IMG/VR virus record: IMGVR_UViG_3300042731_001457
Coordinates: 1-24,053 of that record
Origin: a virus
Direction: 5' to 3' (one strand)
DNA length: 24,053 bases
The notes under the pieces were generated by a model. That model saw only the letters and a program-made list of their open reading frames with translations. It ran no database searches and was not told the DNA's origin. The translations under genes and the position numbers were made by a program. The first letter of the stretch is position 1; every line of letters begins with the position of its first letter. Shown here piece after piece: positions 3,841 through 18,282 of the stretch.

Positions 3841-4353
3841 ATGAAGAAAAAGACTCGTTTAATCCGTGGTGATAGAAACTTCCAGAACTTCATCATTCCC
3901 AATCTGAAAGATGATTTTCCTGGTCTGTGGCAAAGCACCAATGGAACACTGGCCGATATGAAACACGGGATTGATTTCTATTATACCCACGGTCAAACCA
4001 CACTATCTATTTCCGCGCGTGTTTGGACTTGCGAGCCCAAGCAACACTTCGCGGTTCGATGGAAGAAGACATCCGACCCAGAACAGCTTCTTGAAGTCGG
4101 TTCCAGACTGAAAGCTCTTCGAAATGATCTTCCGATGAGTAATCTAACCATTGAAGGATTCGTTTATAATAGATGGGTTTATATCGCTTGGGTGGATACT
4201 CGTGTCTTGTGGGAAGCTGTGGAGGTTAATCTGGATAACCTTAGACACTTTCCAGTCAAGAATCAAGAAGGAGGATATACCCTATTCCTTCAGGTTCCGT
4301 TCTCGCTATTTCCTGAAGAGGTTCTATTCAAGAAAGTGTGTTCTATAATTTAG
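3841..4353 (+). CDS. Lone plus-strand gene of unknown function, possible nuclease-like fold
   Basis: A 170-residue protein and the only gene on this strand. I start it at 3841 (MKKKTRLIRGD) because the upstream in-frame ATG at 3781 would add a cysteine-rich stretch across the promoter. There is no ribosome site, so the mRNA is probably nearly leaderless. The stretch STNGTLADMKHGIDFYY (about residues 34-50), then ISARVW and FAVRW, and later GFVYNRWVYIAWVD, recalls a group of phage and bacterial proteins with a D...GID...R pattern that may have a restriction-endonuclease-like fold; that link is tentative. Its 3' end overlaps the membrane-protein gene on the other strand by 11 bases. With its own promoter and opposite orientation it looks like an independently expressed accessory (moron-like) gene. 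Confidence 0.75.
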   Translation: MKKKTRLIRGDRNFQNFIIPNLKDDFPGLWQSTNGTLADMKHGIDFYYTHGQTTLSISARVWTCEPKQHFAVRWKKTSDPEQLLEVGSRLKALRNDLPMSNLTIEGFVYNRWVYIAWVDTRVLWEAVEVNLDNLRHFPVKNQEGGYTLFLQVPFSLFPEEVLFKKVCSII

Positions 4354-4621
4354 CTTTGATTTCAACCACATCTTCCTTAATGCTTTTCACTTCAGTTCCT
4401 ACGTTCTGAAGTTCGATAGTCATATCGTACAGGCTCTTTTTATACACTTCCCGATCTTGGCTGTGTTCATCGATGACCCGATCGAACTGGTCTAGGTGTC
4501 GATTGACCCAGACCGGAAGATGCTGACCAATCCAACGACCGATCACAAAGATAGCCATAAGACAGAGAACCAAGGCCCCCACCGGACCCGTTAACAGTTG
4601 AATCATTACAGGATCGTTCAT
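4343..4621 (-). CDS. Small membrane protein with coiled-coil tail, holin candidate
   Basis: A 92-residue protein with one hydrophobic segment at about residues 9-28 (TGPVGALVLCLMAIFVIG) followed by a long charged, probably coiled-coil helix to the C-terminus (VIDEHSQDREVYKKS, then regular I/V-E-K repeats). I start it at the ATG at 4621, which overlaps the endolysin stop as ATGA; a TTG four codons earlier is less likely. One membrane span with a cytoplasmic or periplasmic helix beside an endolysin fits a holin, a holin partner or a spanin-like protein. There is no lipobox. No terminator is visible after it, so transcription probably continues antisense into the plus-strand gene. Confidence 0.75.
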   Translation of the reverse strand: MNDPVMIQLLTGPVGALVLCLMAIFVIGRWIGQHLPVWVNRHLDQFDRVIDEHSQDREVYKKSLYDMTIELQNVGTEVKSIKEDVVEIKAKL

Positions 4622-5202
4622 CGTTCCACCCAAGTTTGAATCCCTTGAGATATTCCAAGGGCTATTTGTTTTATTCCGTGGTGATTCAATAGGTTCTTGT
4701 GCGTATCCATAAAGATCGGTTCACAACAGATCGCCACTGGTCTTCCTACTCCCTTGATTGTGTTCCACGCGTTCTTTGTCCAGTCTCCACCTCTACAGGG
4801 AATCGCCTTGACATCATTCAAACTTGGGAGAGTCTGAAACAGCGCTTTGGATATTTTACCGGCCAGTTCTTTTCCCATTGGTGAAGCGTGGTGATAGAAG
4901 AATGAACCGTATTCACCACCACCCGCGTTCAAGTGAAGAGCCAAGTACACACTGTTTTGAACTCCCACCGCGTAGTTATTGATTCTTGCGTGTCTTGTTC
5001 CATAAGATCCATCCGATATAGGAAGAACATCATAACCCATTTCCAATAATAAGATTTCAAGTTCGATAGCCAAGCGGCCAGTCCATATCGCTTCTCGTTC
5101 GGCCCAAGAAATAACCCCATCACCATCCAGATCCTGACCGGCTCCCCTGTCTGATAATCGCCTAGGCTTTCCAGCGTGCTGTCTATCTATGAATACTAAC
5201 AT
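4618..5202 (-). CDS. Endolysin: N-acetylmuramoyl-L-alanine amidase with EF-hand loop
   Basis: A 194-residue zinc amidase of the Amidase_3 fold that cleaves the bond between muramic acid and the peptide of peptidoglycan. Likely zinc ligands are H9 (IDRQHAG), E37 and H90 (LHLNAGGG); the likely catalytic glutamate is E161 (CCEPIF). Residues 24-35, DLDGDGVISWAE, are a textbook EF-hand calcium loop (D, D, D, G, I, E at positions 1, 3, 5, 6, 8, 12), only two residues before E37. No signal peptide and no cell-wall-binding domain are present, so it needs a holin to reach the wall. It is followed with an ATGA overlap by the membrane protein. A GGGG ribosome site precedes its ATG. Confidence 0.9.
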   Translation of the reverse strand: MLVFIDRQHAGKPRRLSDRGAGQDLDGDGVISWAEREAIWTGRLAIELEILLLEMGYDVLPISDGSYGTRHARINNYAVGVQNSVYLALHLNAGGGEYGSFFYHHASPMGKELAGKISKALFQTLPSLNDVKAIPCRGGDWTKNAWNTIKGVGRPVAICCEPIFMDTHKNLLNHHGIKQIALGISQGIQTWVER

Positions 5203-12247: not shown

Positions 12248-12721
12248 TTACACTCTCTTGGATAGATCTTTCATTAAAGCGCGAACCACTTTCCGCGCCG
12301 ATTTCTTCAAGGGCTTCACCAGTAGTTCATCGGCCACAAGTTTTCCTTGGGGCTGAATAATATCTTTCCCATCCTTGTTCCTGGAGTCCGCGCCAAAGAA
12401 CATAAGATAAGAATAATCCGCTGTGTTCTTCAGATACACTTCCAGAACTCCACCAGCGGTTACACGAACCCCACGCCTGAACATTCTATAAGACTTTTTT
12501 GATCGATCCCTGAAATATACGATTTCCCCTTCTTTATTGGTTCGGATCGCCGGCTTCCTCTTGGGCCAATCTTTCACCGCTTCTTCTTCAATCTTGTCGA
12601 GTTCTTCACGCATGATCTTTTCCGCGTTGGGTGTTACGGTCTGGAGAAATGACAAAAAGATCCCTTCCATATCTTCCGTGAATTGGACCACCGCATTTCC
12701 ATTTTTGTACATCTTCCCCAT
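12248..12721 (-). CDS. HK97 gp10-like tail completion / neck protein candidate
   Basis: A 157-residue basic protein. The layout (a helix with EKIMREELDKIEEEAVKDWPKR, a central strand pair YRMFRRGVRVTAGGVLEVYLKN, then an ADYSYLMFFG loop and a C-terminal helix LVKPLKKSARKVVRALMKDL) resembles the HK97 gp10 / minor tail family: a long helix, beta strands around a Y-A-x-F/Y motif, and a final helix. Its position between the tail chaperone and tape measure is not usual for that family, which commonly lies before the tube, so the assignment is moderate. ATG at 12721 lies three bases past the frameshifted chaperone stop with GGGGA as ribosome site. Confidence 0.7.
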   Translation of the reverse strand: MGKMYKNGNAVVQFTEDMEGIFLSFLQTVTPNAEKIMREELDKIEEEAVKDWPKRKPAIRTNKEGEIVYFRDRSKKSYRMFRRGVRVTAGGVLEVYLKNTADYSYLMFFGADSRNKDGKDIIQPQGKLVADELLVKPLKKSARKVVRALMKDLSKRV

Positions 12722-12723
12722 AT

Positions 12724-13286
12724 TTATTCCCCGATAGATTTGGCAATCATCGCCTTCATTTTAGCCCTTTTATTGGCTTCTTGTCTATCTTTTATTTCCT
12801 GTGGGGAAGATGTTTCAATCCTATGATTGGCCAGAACTTTGATCTGTGTTTCTGGTTCCAGAGTGTAAAACCATTCAGGATCTCGGTTCCAAGCCTTGGC
12901 GATTCTTATGGCCAGAAGATCCAGCGATCCCCTAGCACTTAGGAAAAATTTGCAGTGTTTTCCACTTCATCCTCAGTCGGAATCGCTTTCATCATTTCAA
13001 GAAGAACCTGTGACCCCATTTCATACACATCAGACAAAGAAACCCCGGCTTCCAGTAGCCGGTCCATTATCTTGTGACCGAATAGAATCGGATCGCCACT
13101 GGCTATCTTGTACGCTGGAAGAACCCGTGAATGATCCACCCCCACAGCAATCGCGGCCGCGCAAAGTCGACCCAGCTGGGCGCGGTTTGGTTCGCTTCCC
13201 CAGATTGACACAAAGTCCACGCACGTGGCCAATGACTTCGGCGCGCGGACTTCGTGTGTTCCTAGTTTTTTCAAATTAAGTTCCAT
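12724..13286 (-). CDS. Tail assembly chaperone, -1 frameshift fusion product (G-T type)
   Basis: Ribosomes that slip -1 at the heptamer at 12951-12945 leave the first frame just before its TAA and continue for 73 codons (FLSARGSLDLLAIRIAKAWN onward), ending at TAA 12726-12724, three bases before the next ATG. The fused protein is 187 residues. The extension includes RIAKAWNRDPEWFYTLEPE and a basic C-terminal helix with KDRQEANKRAKMKAMIAKS, typical of the T extension of tail chaperones. Without the shift, 12724-12938 would be the only sizeable non-coding stretch inside the late operon, and no ribosome site precedes an internal start there. Confidence 0.85.
12939..13286 (-). CDS. Tail assembly chaperone, unshifted product (G type)
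   Basis: A 115-residue mostly helical protein between the tail tube and tape measure genes, the standard site of the lambda G / G-T pair. The N-terminal MELNLKKLGTHEVRAPKSLA is a beta/loop segment; the rest is helical (AQLGRLCAAAIAVGVD, ILFGHKIMDRLLEAGV) and ends in an acidic PTEDEVENTANFS tail containing the slip site. It starts at ATG 13286 with a GAGGTACAA ribosome site. Chaperones of this kind coat the tape measure while the tube is built and are absent from the finished virion. Confidence 0.85.
   Translation of the reverse strand: MELNLKKLGTHEVRAPKSLATCVDFVSIWGSEPNRAQLGRLCAAAIAVGVDHSRVLPAYKIASGDPILFGHKIMDRLLEAGVSLSDVYEMGSQVLLEMMKAIPTEDEVENTANFS
12945..12951 (-). other. Programmed -1 ribosomal frameshift heptamer
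   Basis: In the minus-strand message the zero frame reads GC A AAT TTT TCC TAA, so the heptamer A AAT TTT has the perfect X XXY YYZ form and sits two codons before the stop. A short hairpin, CCTA-AGTGC-TAGG extended by G-U pairs, begins right behind it (about 12930-12943). After the shift the frame stays open to the next gene. Confidence 0.85.
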
Positions 13287-14268: not shown

Positions 14269-15038
14269 TATTTTCTTCTACCTCGGAACGCACCAAAACG
14301 ACCGTGTTGTGATAGATAGATCACTGGCTGTTTAGCGGTTCGATTGTTTGGTGTTTCCGCTTTTCCATCGTGATCGAAATCATATATGAAATTGATCTGT
14401 TTCCAATCGTTATGGTACTGTCTGAAGTGTTCCCCAGCTAGGTCCAAGTATCGGCCATTGGATTGACCGAGTGAAGAATGGAAATCTCTGAAAATGTAGT
14501 ACAGTGTGAGATTTTGGTGGGCTGATCTGAATGATTCCGCACTCATCACCAGATATTCCAGACCACCACCTTCTTGGCGTAGCTTCTGAATCATTGTATA
14601 CCACGCTTCATCAATATAAGTCTGATATGATGTTAGATTGGATGGTCGGATATCTGCTAGTTGTGAATATGTGGAAGTTAGATCACCATCTGAGATCACC
14701 GGATAGAGTCTTCTTTTCACAATCGCGGTATTTCTACGAAAAGTGAAAGGAGCGCCCCCAAGGGTTACAGTCCATTCTTGAAGATAGCCTTCACCCAAGT
14801 TCAAGGTTTCAGCCATCACAGAAGCGGAGTGGGTATATTGTGGAATGTTTCCTGGATAAGTCGCTACGGCATTATCCACCACTTTGGTCTGGTCCGGTGC
14901 TGTTAGACTGTATCGAACTTCAGTTGGACCCACCAGAACCCCATCGCGATAGATGGGAAGAACGCTGGTCTGTGTTTTCCCCCGTTCCAATAGTTCAGGG
15001 ATTTTTATCTGTGGTGAATAAGGCGTAGAAGAACTCAT
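14268..15038 (-). CDS. Head-tail connector / adaptor candidate
   Basis: A 256-residue protein located between the unknown protein after the capsid gene and the tail terminator candidate, where head-tail adaptors normally lie. The N-terminal half is beta-rich (VLPIYRDGVLVGPTEVRYSL, LQEWTVTLGGAPFTFRRNTAIVKR) and the middle is helical (SYQTYIDEAWYTMIQKLRQEGGG, FRSAHQNLTLYYIFRDFHS). Near the C-terminus YDFDHDGKAE (residues 219-228) has the D-x-D-x-D-G pattern of a calcium-binding loop. The basic tail FGAFRGRRK could touch DNA. It starts with an ATGA overlap. The family is not certain; the domain order fits connector proteins with a strand-rich head and helical body. Confidence 0.65.
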   Translation of the reverse strand: MSSSTPYSPQIKIPELLERGKTQTSVLPIYRDGVLVGPTEVRYSLTAPDQTKVVDNAVATYPGNIPQYTHSASVMAETLNLGEGYLQEWTVTLGGAPFTFRRNTAIVKRRLYPVISDGDLTSTYSQLADIRPSNLTSYQTYIDEAWYTMIQKLRQEGGGLEYLVMSAESFRSAHQNLTLYYIFRDFHSSLGQSNGRYLDLAGEHFRQYHNDWKQINFIYDFDHDGKAETPNNRTAKQPVIYLSQHGRFGAFRGRRK

Positions 15039-15700
15039 TTTAAGATCCTATGGTATATCTCAAGACCCTTGGCTTCATAATCAGAAATACACTTCTTCAT
15101 ATCCTCCAGGATCTTATAATGTTCATTTATTTTCACTTTCACTTCTGGAATGTGTTGAGAACCGGCCAATCGATTGATAGTCTTCTGGTGGCTATAGGTT
15201 TGAAGCTCCCAGAAGTGCGGTTCTGGTTGTGGAAGGATGTGATTTACAAGTAGGTTACACGACCATTTCCAGAACGATTCACTGTCCATCTTCTTGATAA
15301 TCTGACCAGCCACCACACGAACTTCCAGCCATTTCGGAACGTGGTATCTTCCCCCGCGTACTGGATACACGTGCATATAATCGAACTGTTGAGGAGAAAG
15401 ATATATCCAACCCTGTTGTTGGAGCTTTCCGATTCTTGAACCGGCTTCTCCTATCTCTCCAGAGATCTGATGAATCCCATTGACACCAGGAACGATTCTT
15501 TCCATTCTGATATTGGGAACAAATAGCCCGATTCTTTCAAGCTCTGGTTCTTTCTTCTTGGATTCTTTGGGAACCTCGAAATAATGAAAGCCCCAGTTCG
15601 AAGGATGGAACTTATAATAAAATGGATGATTGGGGCGCGCTGGAAGTGTTTGTGGTGCTTCTGGTTTGGTCATCGCCCAAGGTTGTGGTTTAATATTCAT
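15035..15700 (-). CDS. Unknown protein directly after the capsid gene
   Basis: A 221-residue soluble protein with a proline-rich N-terminus (PWAMTKPEAPQTLPARPNHPFYYKFHPSNWGF) and a helical, charged C-terminus (VKVKINEHYKILEDMKKCISDYEAKG). It is rich in aromatic residues and histidine. No catalytic motif, membrane segment or zinc cluster is visible, and I do not recognise a family. It begins at ATG 15700 with the GAGGTACA ribosome site and sits behind a hairpin that may limit its expression relative to the capsid protein. A head completion or scaffold-like role is conceivable from its position only. Confidence 0.72.
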   Translation of the reverse strand: MNIKPQPWAMTKPEAPQTLPARPNHPFYYKFHPSNWGFHYFEVPKESKKKEPELERIGLFVPNIRMERIVPGVNGIHQISGEIGEAGSRIGKLQQQGWIYLSPQQFDYMHVYPVRGGRYHVPKWLEVRVVAGQIIKKMDSESFWKWSCNLLVNHILPQPEPHFWELQTYSHQKTINRLAGSQHIPEVKVKINEHYKILEDMKKCISDYEAKGLEIYHRILK

Positions 15701-16890: not shown

Positions 16891-18282
16891 TTAGATAGAG
16901 ATAACGATCTTCAATCCAGTCTTGTTCGATCCAGCTTTGACTTTCAGATTGTTAGCATCTGTTAGTTGAACATCCAACATGACCAAATTGTCATTGGCAT
17001 CATAAGCAGAAACATGAACGAACTTCTTTCCAAGCCCGTGGTTCAACGTGGCGAAAGTGTTCGCAGTTAATGATTGGTTTGCGAACTCCTTTCGAAGATC
17101 ATCCATATCAACAGAAAGTTCACCGGTAGAACTGTTGTAGTTCAGAAGCTGGTTCTGGATACCAGAATCAAGAGACAAGGCAGAACGCGCGCGAGCATCT
17201 GTGAAATACTGGTTTGTAGATCCTTCCGCGATGTCATCTGAGTCAGCATCAAGAGCAATAACACCAGTAGAAGAATCATAGGCTAACCCATCTGTATCAA
17301 CAGAGATCGCCCCACGTGCGCGAGCATCTGTAAAGTATTTATTGGTGGGGCTTGCGGCCTCTGGAACATCATCTGTGTTCGCAGAAAGAGAATATTCCCC
17401 ACCATCGAAAGCCAGACCATCTCCAGCGCTGAACTGGTTGAAAACTCTTGATACTGGAAGAGATAACGCACCGCTAACACTGTTATAGGTTAGAAGTTGG
17501 AAATCTTCCGAACCTACTGAATTTAGAGAGATAGAACTTCTTGATCTTGCTTGAGTGAAGAAGAGGTTGTTTTCTTCTGTTACATCATCCGATCCGATTG
17601 AAGCAGTGATAACACCAGTTGAAGAATCATAAGTAAGACCACCACCACTAACAGAGATCGCGCTTCTTGATCTTGAATCGGAATAATATAAATTTGAACT
17701 TCCTTCGTTGATTCCATCCGAAGTTACATTCAAAGTATAAACACCATTGGCATCATCATAACTTAGACCAGTTCCAGCGCTGAAGAAACCACGAATCTGA
17801 CCTTGATTGGCTGTGAATTCACCGGTGGTGCTGTTGTAACTTACACCAGAAGAAGCGGAAAGAAGAGAACGCACTTCTGAAGCGGAAACATCTGAACCTT
17901 CGATCTGGGTGAAATCAGCAGAAGTTCCAGCGGTTCCACCGTTATGAATGTAGGTTTCAGTTCTGGAAGATGAAGTATTGGTGAGGATGATCATATCCCC
18001 CTCTTGAAGTTCATCGCCATTGGTGTAGTTTGTACTTATCCAGTTCGCCAAAGAAGTAGCGGTTGAATCAACAGTAACATCAGTTACGGCAAGAGACTTA
18101 AGTTTCAATTGCTTGGAACCATTGACCACTACAGTCTCAGCAAGTAGAGAAGAATCAGTGTGAATCGCCATAATAGCATTGGATTCCACCCAGTCTTTTC
18201 GTACTGCGTGATTGGATTGTGAAGGTGCATTTTCGAGCTGGACTATTCCTTCGAAGATCACATTGGGATTGAAAAAATTCAT
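16891..18282 (-). CDS. Repeat-built fibre or capsid decoration protein (YFTDARAR repeats)
   Basis: A 463-residue serine/threonine/aspartate-rich protein. From about residue 130 it is made of a repeating module of about 43 residues: a YDSSTGVI-like strand (near 148, 174, 217, 265, 334, 381) followed by a YFTDARARSAIS-like element (199-210, 241-252, 316-327, 359-370). The N-terminus NAPSQSNHAVRKDWVES resembles the attachment end of marine phage fibres, and the C-terminus NHGLGKKFVHVSAYDANDNLV is a tip-like domain. Repeats of this kind are known to me from virion structural proteins of aquatic phages. Its place is unusual: between decoration-like genes and the capsid gene, not with the tail fibres, suggesting a head fibre or neck whisker. 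AAGGA precedes the ATG. Confidence 0.8.
   Translation of the reverse strand: MNFFNPNVIFEGIVQLENAPSQSNHAVRKDWVESNAIMAIHTDSSLLAETVVVNGSKQLKLKSLAVTDVTVDSTATSLANWISTNYTNGDELQEGDMIILTNTSSSRTETYIHNGGTAGTSADFTQIEGSDVSASEVRSLLSASSGVSYNSTTGEFTANQGQIRGFFSAGTGLSYDDANGVYTLNVTSDGINEGSSNLYYSDSRSRSAISVSGGGLTYDSSTGVITASIGSDDVTEENNLFFTQARSRSSISLNSVGSEDFQLLTYNSVSGALSLPVSRVFNQFSAGDGLAFDGGEYSLSANTDDVPEAASPTNKYFTDARARGAISVDTDGLAYDSSTGVIALDADSDDIAEGSTNQYFTDARARSALSLDSGIQNQLLNYNSSTGELSVDMDDLRKEFANQSLTANTFATLNHGLGKKFVHVSAYDANDNLVMLDVQLTDANNLKVKAGSNKTGLKIVISI

Follow-up and report, generated by a model that had tools for sequence, protein, structure and literature searches.

The putative chaperone gene and its neighborhood

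The window, by which we mean the whole stretch of DNA that was analysed, is a 24,053-base IMG/VR virus record from an uncultured tailed phage. It carries a putative tail assembly chaperone gene whose end is overlapped by a second open frame at -1 (Table 1). The 3' end of the zero frame reads GCA AAT TTT TCC TAA. The -1 frame opens 25 nt before the zero-frame stop, giving an overlap of 25 nt, and the heptamer lies inside it.

Table 1. Features of the chaperone locus and adjoining tail genes in the window.
Feature	Position	Strand	Basis
Zero-frame gene for a putative tail assembly chaperone (G-like), 115 aa	12939..13286	-	ORF; conserved in all relatives
Slippery heptamer A_AAT_TTT, in phase	12945..12951	-	direct sequence; identical in 63/66 distinct sequences
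Zero-frame stop TAA, one sense codon past heptamer	12939..12941	-	direct sequence
-1 frame extension (T-like), 73 codons + stop TAA (12726..12724)	12724..12945	-	dN/dS 0.20 in -1 frame
Predicted 11-bp hairpin, 8 nt past heptamer, possible stimulator	12911..12936	-	folding
Tail tube (major tail) protein, 170 aa	13315..13827	-	predicted-model matches; directly upstream of chaperone
Conserved ~157-aa gene between -1 extension and tape measure	12248..12721	-	same place in relatives
Tail tape-measure protein, 703 aa	10133..12244	-	PHROG 1506 tape measure, E 1.2e-10

Within the 115-aa gene A_AAT_TTT was the only in-phase heptamer of the form X_XXY_YYZ. Fourteen other window genes were tested, and their 5420 codons held 18 in-phase heptamers of this form and no in-phase AAATTTT. 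At that frequency a random heptamer would be expected in the 25-nt overlap about 3% of the time. Judged from these counts the slip site is beyond chance, and its conservation in relatives (see below) removes the remaining doubt.

The tube gene adjoined the chaperone gene upstream in 25/25 representatives. The model of the tube protein was moderate (pLDDT 64), and its structural neighbors were almost all tail-tube or Hcp-type proteins, the best being the YSD1 major tail protein (VIA-align Z 9.2, rmsd 4.1, 135 aligned). On the downstream side, a same-place gene of 152–198 aa followed the extension in all 20 readable representative relatives; in many relatives there is a four-base overlap between its start and the -1 stop, and the window copy gave no family match in Pfam and PHROG scans. 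The tape-measure counterpart in the distant relative L052 matched several tape-measure PHROGs. The chaperone gene lies, as in lambda G/G-T, between the tail tube and tape-measure genes, with one extra gene interposed, and this order is kept in relatives. The earlier note had given the same location, with a tube-fold protein now found upstream and a tape measure downstream, and had correctly read the zero-frame ending, the in-phase X_XXY_YYZ heptamer and 73 open codons at -1. Two of its distances were corrected: the gap past the zero-frame stop is 217 bases rather than 215, and 2 bases, not three, separate the -1 stop from the ATG of the next gene at 12721.

Pfam and PHROG scans with both parts of the chaperone returned no real match and no chaperone family. 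The zero-frame product was modeled as two short N-terminal strands and five helices (pLDDT 89, 26-row alignment). A PDB fold search with this model gave only noise and no solved structure alike, and the only two fold neighbors in BFVD with a tail chaperone annotation were weak (TM 0.40–0.48, E > 3), a model-based resemblance that is only suggestive. Profile matches of the zero-frame product to designed TIM barrels were dismissed, as they covered about 30 residues of Ala/Gly-rich helix.

Elsewhere in the window several genes on the minus strand drew our attention. A 463-aa protein (18282..16894), whose gene belongs to the head group and immediately precedes that of the major head protein, contains repeats including NQYFTDARARSALS and GLTYDSSTGVI and had no Pfam match; a fibre or decoration role is possible. 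A 221-aa protein (15700..15038) also had no Pfam match, and its counterpart in the distant relative L051 (464..1132) is alike in both size and sequence. The product of 5202..4621, which showed a weak Amidase_3 match (E 2.3e-4) under the curated cut-off, is likely a lysin, and the adjoining gene at 4633..4343 encodes a short protein, membrane-spanning by its look, that may be a holin.

Conservation of the slip site

Relatives were collected through scans of viral contigs, three with the fusion protein or its alignments, two with distant members and one with the tape measure. Together with the window, these uncultured relatives gave 66 distinct sequences covering the zero-frame end (about 26 groups at 85% identity), 58 of which are complete. 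A_AAT_TTT was present in phase in 63 of the 66, and two of the three exceptions carry another perfect X_XXY_YYZ heptamer; a conserved slippery heptamer within the frame overlap is a feature of lambda G/G-T. L133, the most distant member (about 30% identical, and near-identical to L052), has G_GGT_TTT at the equivalent codon, and L129, from the same contig as L051, has T_TTT_TTG one codon later. The third exception, L068, has G_GAT_TTT at the equivalent codon followed by TCC_TAA; this does not fit X_XXY_YYZ strictly but has been described as a viral shift site (PMC5009743). One contig stands behind each of the L068 and L129 variants. Since all three exceptions keep a slippery site, slipperiness persists though the residues encoded there change (Asn to Asp or Gly).

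The codons of the slip site also stand out from the rest of the gene. In the zero frame 51 columns have a conserved amino acid; synonymous variation is seen in 48 of them, with entropies from 0.41 to 2.43 bits, and the three slip-site columns are the least variable (GCA 59/60, AAT 62/62, TTT 63/63; 0.12, 0 and 0 bits). The chance of exactly these three columns being the lowest of 51 is about 1 in 21,000. The lone GCG in the first slip column belongs to L068, and in three relatives with another residue in this column the codon still ends in A (ATA, ACA).

The -1 extension and alternatives to a ribosomal slip

The -1 extension was open in all 58 complete sequences, running mostly 62–75 codons past the position of the zero-frame stop and 43 in the most distant. 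Pairwise dN/dS over the -1 region had a median over 488 pairs of 0.20 in the -1 frame, vs 0.87 and 1.51 for the two alternative frames, both of which contain stops. By this measure the extension is a real coding region, a selected domain under purifying selection in the -1 frame only. The earlier note had named disrupted heptamers or -1 stop codons in related phages as observations that would speak against a programmed -1 frameshift in a tail chaperone gene; its reading is upheld by the conservation of heptamer and -1 frame and by gene position, with each of the 3 sequences lacking the exact A_AAT_TTT keeping another -1 slippery site.

The -1 region might instead be a separate gene with its own translation, by re-initiation or from a non-canonical start, next to a coincidental heptamer. 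Overlap with coupling is frequent among phage genes, and many relatives do have a TTG or ATG near codons 8–12 of the -1 frame. In the window, however, no ATG, GTG or TTG occurs ahead of codon 62, and in the window and 20 relatives (21/58 sequences) there is none in the -1 frame from the upstream stop to codon 40 past the slip, so that in those 21 the -1 frame cannot be initiated from a usual start codon. In the lambda G/G-T arrangement two frames overlap, and a -1 shift leads into the second, which lacks a start of its own; these 21 sequences show it in startless form. Conservation of the -1 frame moreover starts exactly at the slip site, and a separate gene leaves the frozen state of the three slip codons unexplained. 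We therefore consider a separate gene very improbable.

Slightly less probable still is a fusion produced by transcriptional, rather than ribosomal, slippage on the A/T run. The window site, A3T5, would lend itself to this idea, but in many relatives the T run is no longer than T4 (AAATTTTACG), and in one the site reads GGGTTTTACG. Such short runs are too short for efficient polymerase slippage, and slippage of polymerase on T would need no frozen AAA. That a sequencing or assembly indel, or gene decay, split one reading frame, as could happen in the assembly of a single metagenomic contig, has a negligible probability, being contradicted by 66 distinct sequences, drawn from many samples, that all share the split, and by purifying selection on both parts.

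Stimulators, proposed mechanism and known systems

The preferred reading, a ribosomal slip at A_AAT_TTT, may be helped by downstream RNA structure or by the nearby stop codon. The hairpin that the earlier note had described after the slip site was recovered by folding as an 11-bp stem (-16.4 kcal/mol, z -3.0 vs dinucleotide shuffles), but its stimulatory role fared less well: within its clade of three, L053 has the hairpin and L054 does not, and alignments of relatives showed no base-pair covariation beyond chance for it or for a conserved stimulator hairpin. Across 26 representatives the RNA after the slip had a mean z of -1.13 (codons 1–18) and -1.45 (codons 1–24) vs codon-preserving shuffles, and RNA further downstream had no folding excess (z +0.42 and +0.27). 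An RNA stimulator after the slip site is plausible.

A stop codon lies 0–1 codons past the heptamer in 33/66 sequences and 6–12 codons past it in the other 33. Post-slip structure differed modestly between these groups, with a mean z of -0.9 for near stops vs -1.9 for far stops (p = 0.04, uncorrected for relatedness). It is possible, if rather unlikely, that two slip boosters have been exchanged within the chaperone family, one group relying on a near stop and the other on a far stop plus stronger RNA structure downstream. An upstream Shine-Dalgarno-like stimulator was also sought; 4-mers of this kind were found 13 nt upstream in 32/66 sequences, at 6 nt in 15 and at 7 nt in 15. The codons that hold them are Glu-rich, and the window lacks a 4-mer at any of these distances, so that such a stimulator is unsupported.

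Our analysis points with high confidence to a tail assembly chaperone of the lambda G/G-T type made with programmed -1 ribosomal frameshifting. In the window phage and dozens of its relatives, a single gene almost certainly yields two helper proteins for tail building through a slip at a fixed site. Most ribosomes would halt at TAA and release the 115-aa protein, and a minority would slip back one base, with both tRNAs on A_AAT_TTT, to make a 187-aa fusion (...TANF-FLSAR...). That ribosomes slip at this heptamer is what the sequence evidence argues for, and the chaperone role is indicated by gene position and architecture. If the roles follow those in lambda, the tape-measure protein would be coated by the short form, tube protein would be brought in by the -1 domain of the long form, and the virion would contain neither form.

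The lambda G/G-T mechanism and its wide conservation have been reviewed (Levin 1993; Xu, Hendrix, Duda 2004, 2013, 2014, in PMC5009743). In lambda, as here, the gene lies between tail tube and tape measure and gives a short form and a C-terminally extended form. Differences are the slip site, which in lambda is of the GGGAAAG type rather than A_AAT_TTT, an undetectable sequence similarity, and the extra ~157-aa gene ahead of the tape measure in the window lineage. TP901-1 gpG/gpGT has the same arrangement and -1 frameshift, and its extended form was tested by mutation of the slip site, but its heptamer is GGGAAAG and the proteins differ (PMC4493119). The recoding site of pea enation mosaic virus, G_GAU_UUU_UGG_UAG (PMC5009743), has the same heptamer as L068 (G_GAT_TTT_TCC_TAA), again with a stop one sense codon later, and the stop is equally close in half of the window's chaperone family; this is a plant RNA virus using eukaryotic ribosomes, and the parallel is mechanistic only. 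For HK97-like members, frameshift rates of 6–7% have been measured (PMC3711429). In the literature found, AAATTTT was paired with a phage frameshift only in a Wolbachia hydrolase, not in a tail chaperone.

Neither the chaperone nor the terminase had a detectable relative in 50,697 phage records, and a search of the GTDB genome collection with both gave no match. As the chaperone has no detectable relative in phage records or genome contigs, the phage lineage is undescribed within the collections searched; the mechanism itself is well known. We regard the locus as a new and well-supported case of a known frameshift mechanism, in a phage lineage previously without annotation. With no relatives in phage records and no Pfam or PHROG family for the gene, the extended form would be missed by gene callers. 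The finding adds an uncultured phage lineage to those with a frameshifted tail chaperone, and its relatives, in which the slip site varies naturally at a single position and the stop codon has two layouts, would offer a test bed for bacterial frameshift rates.
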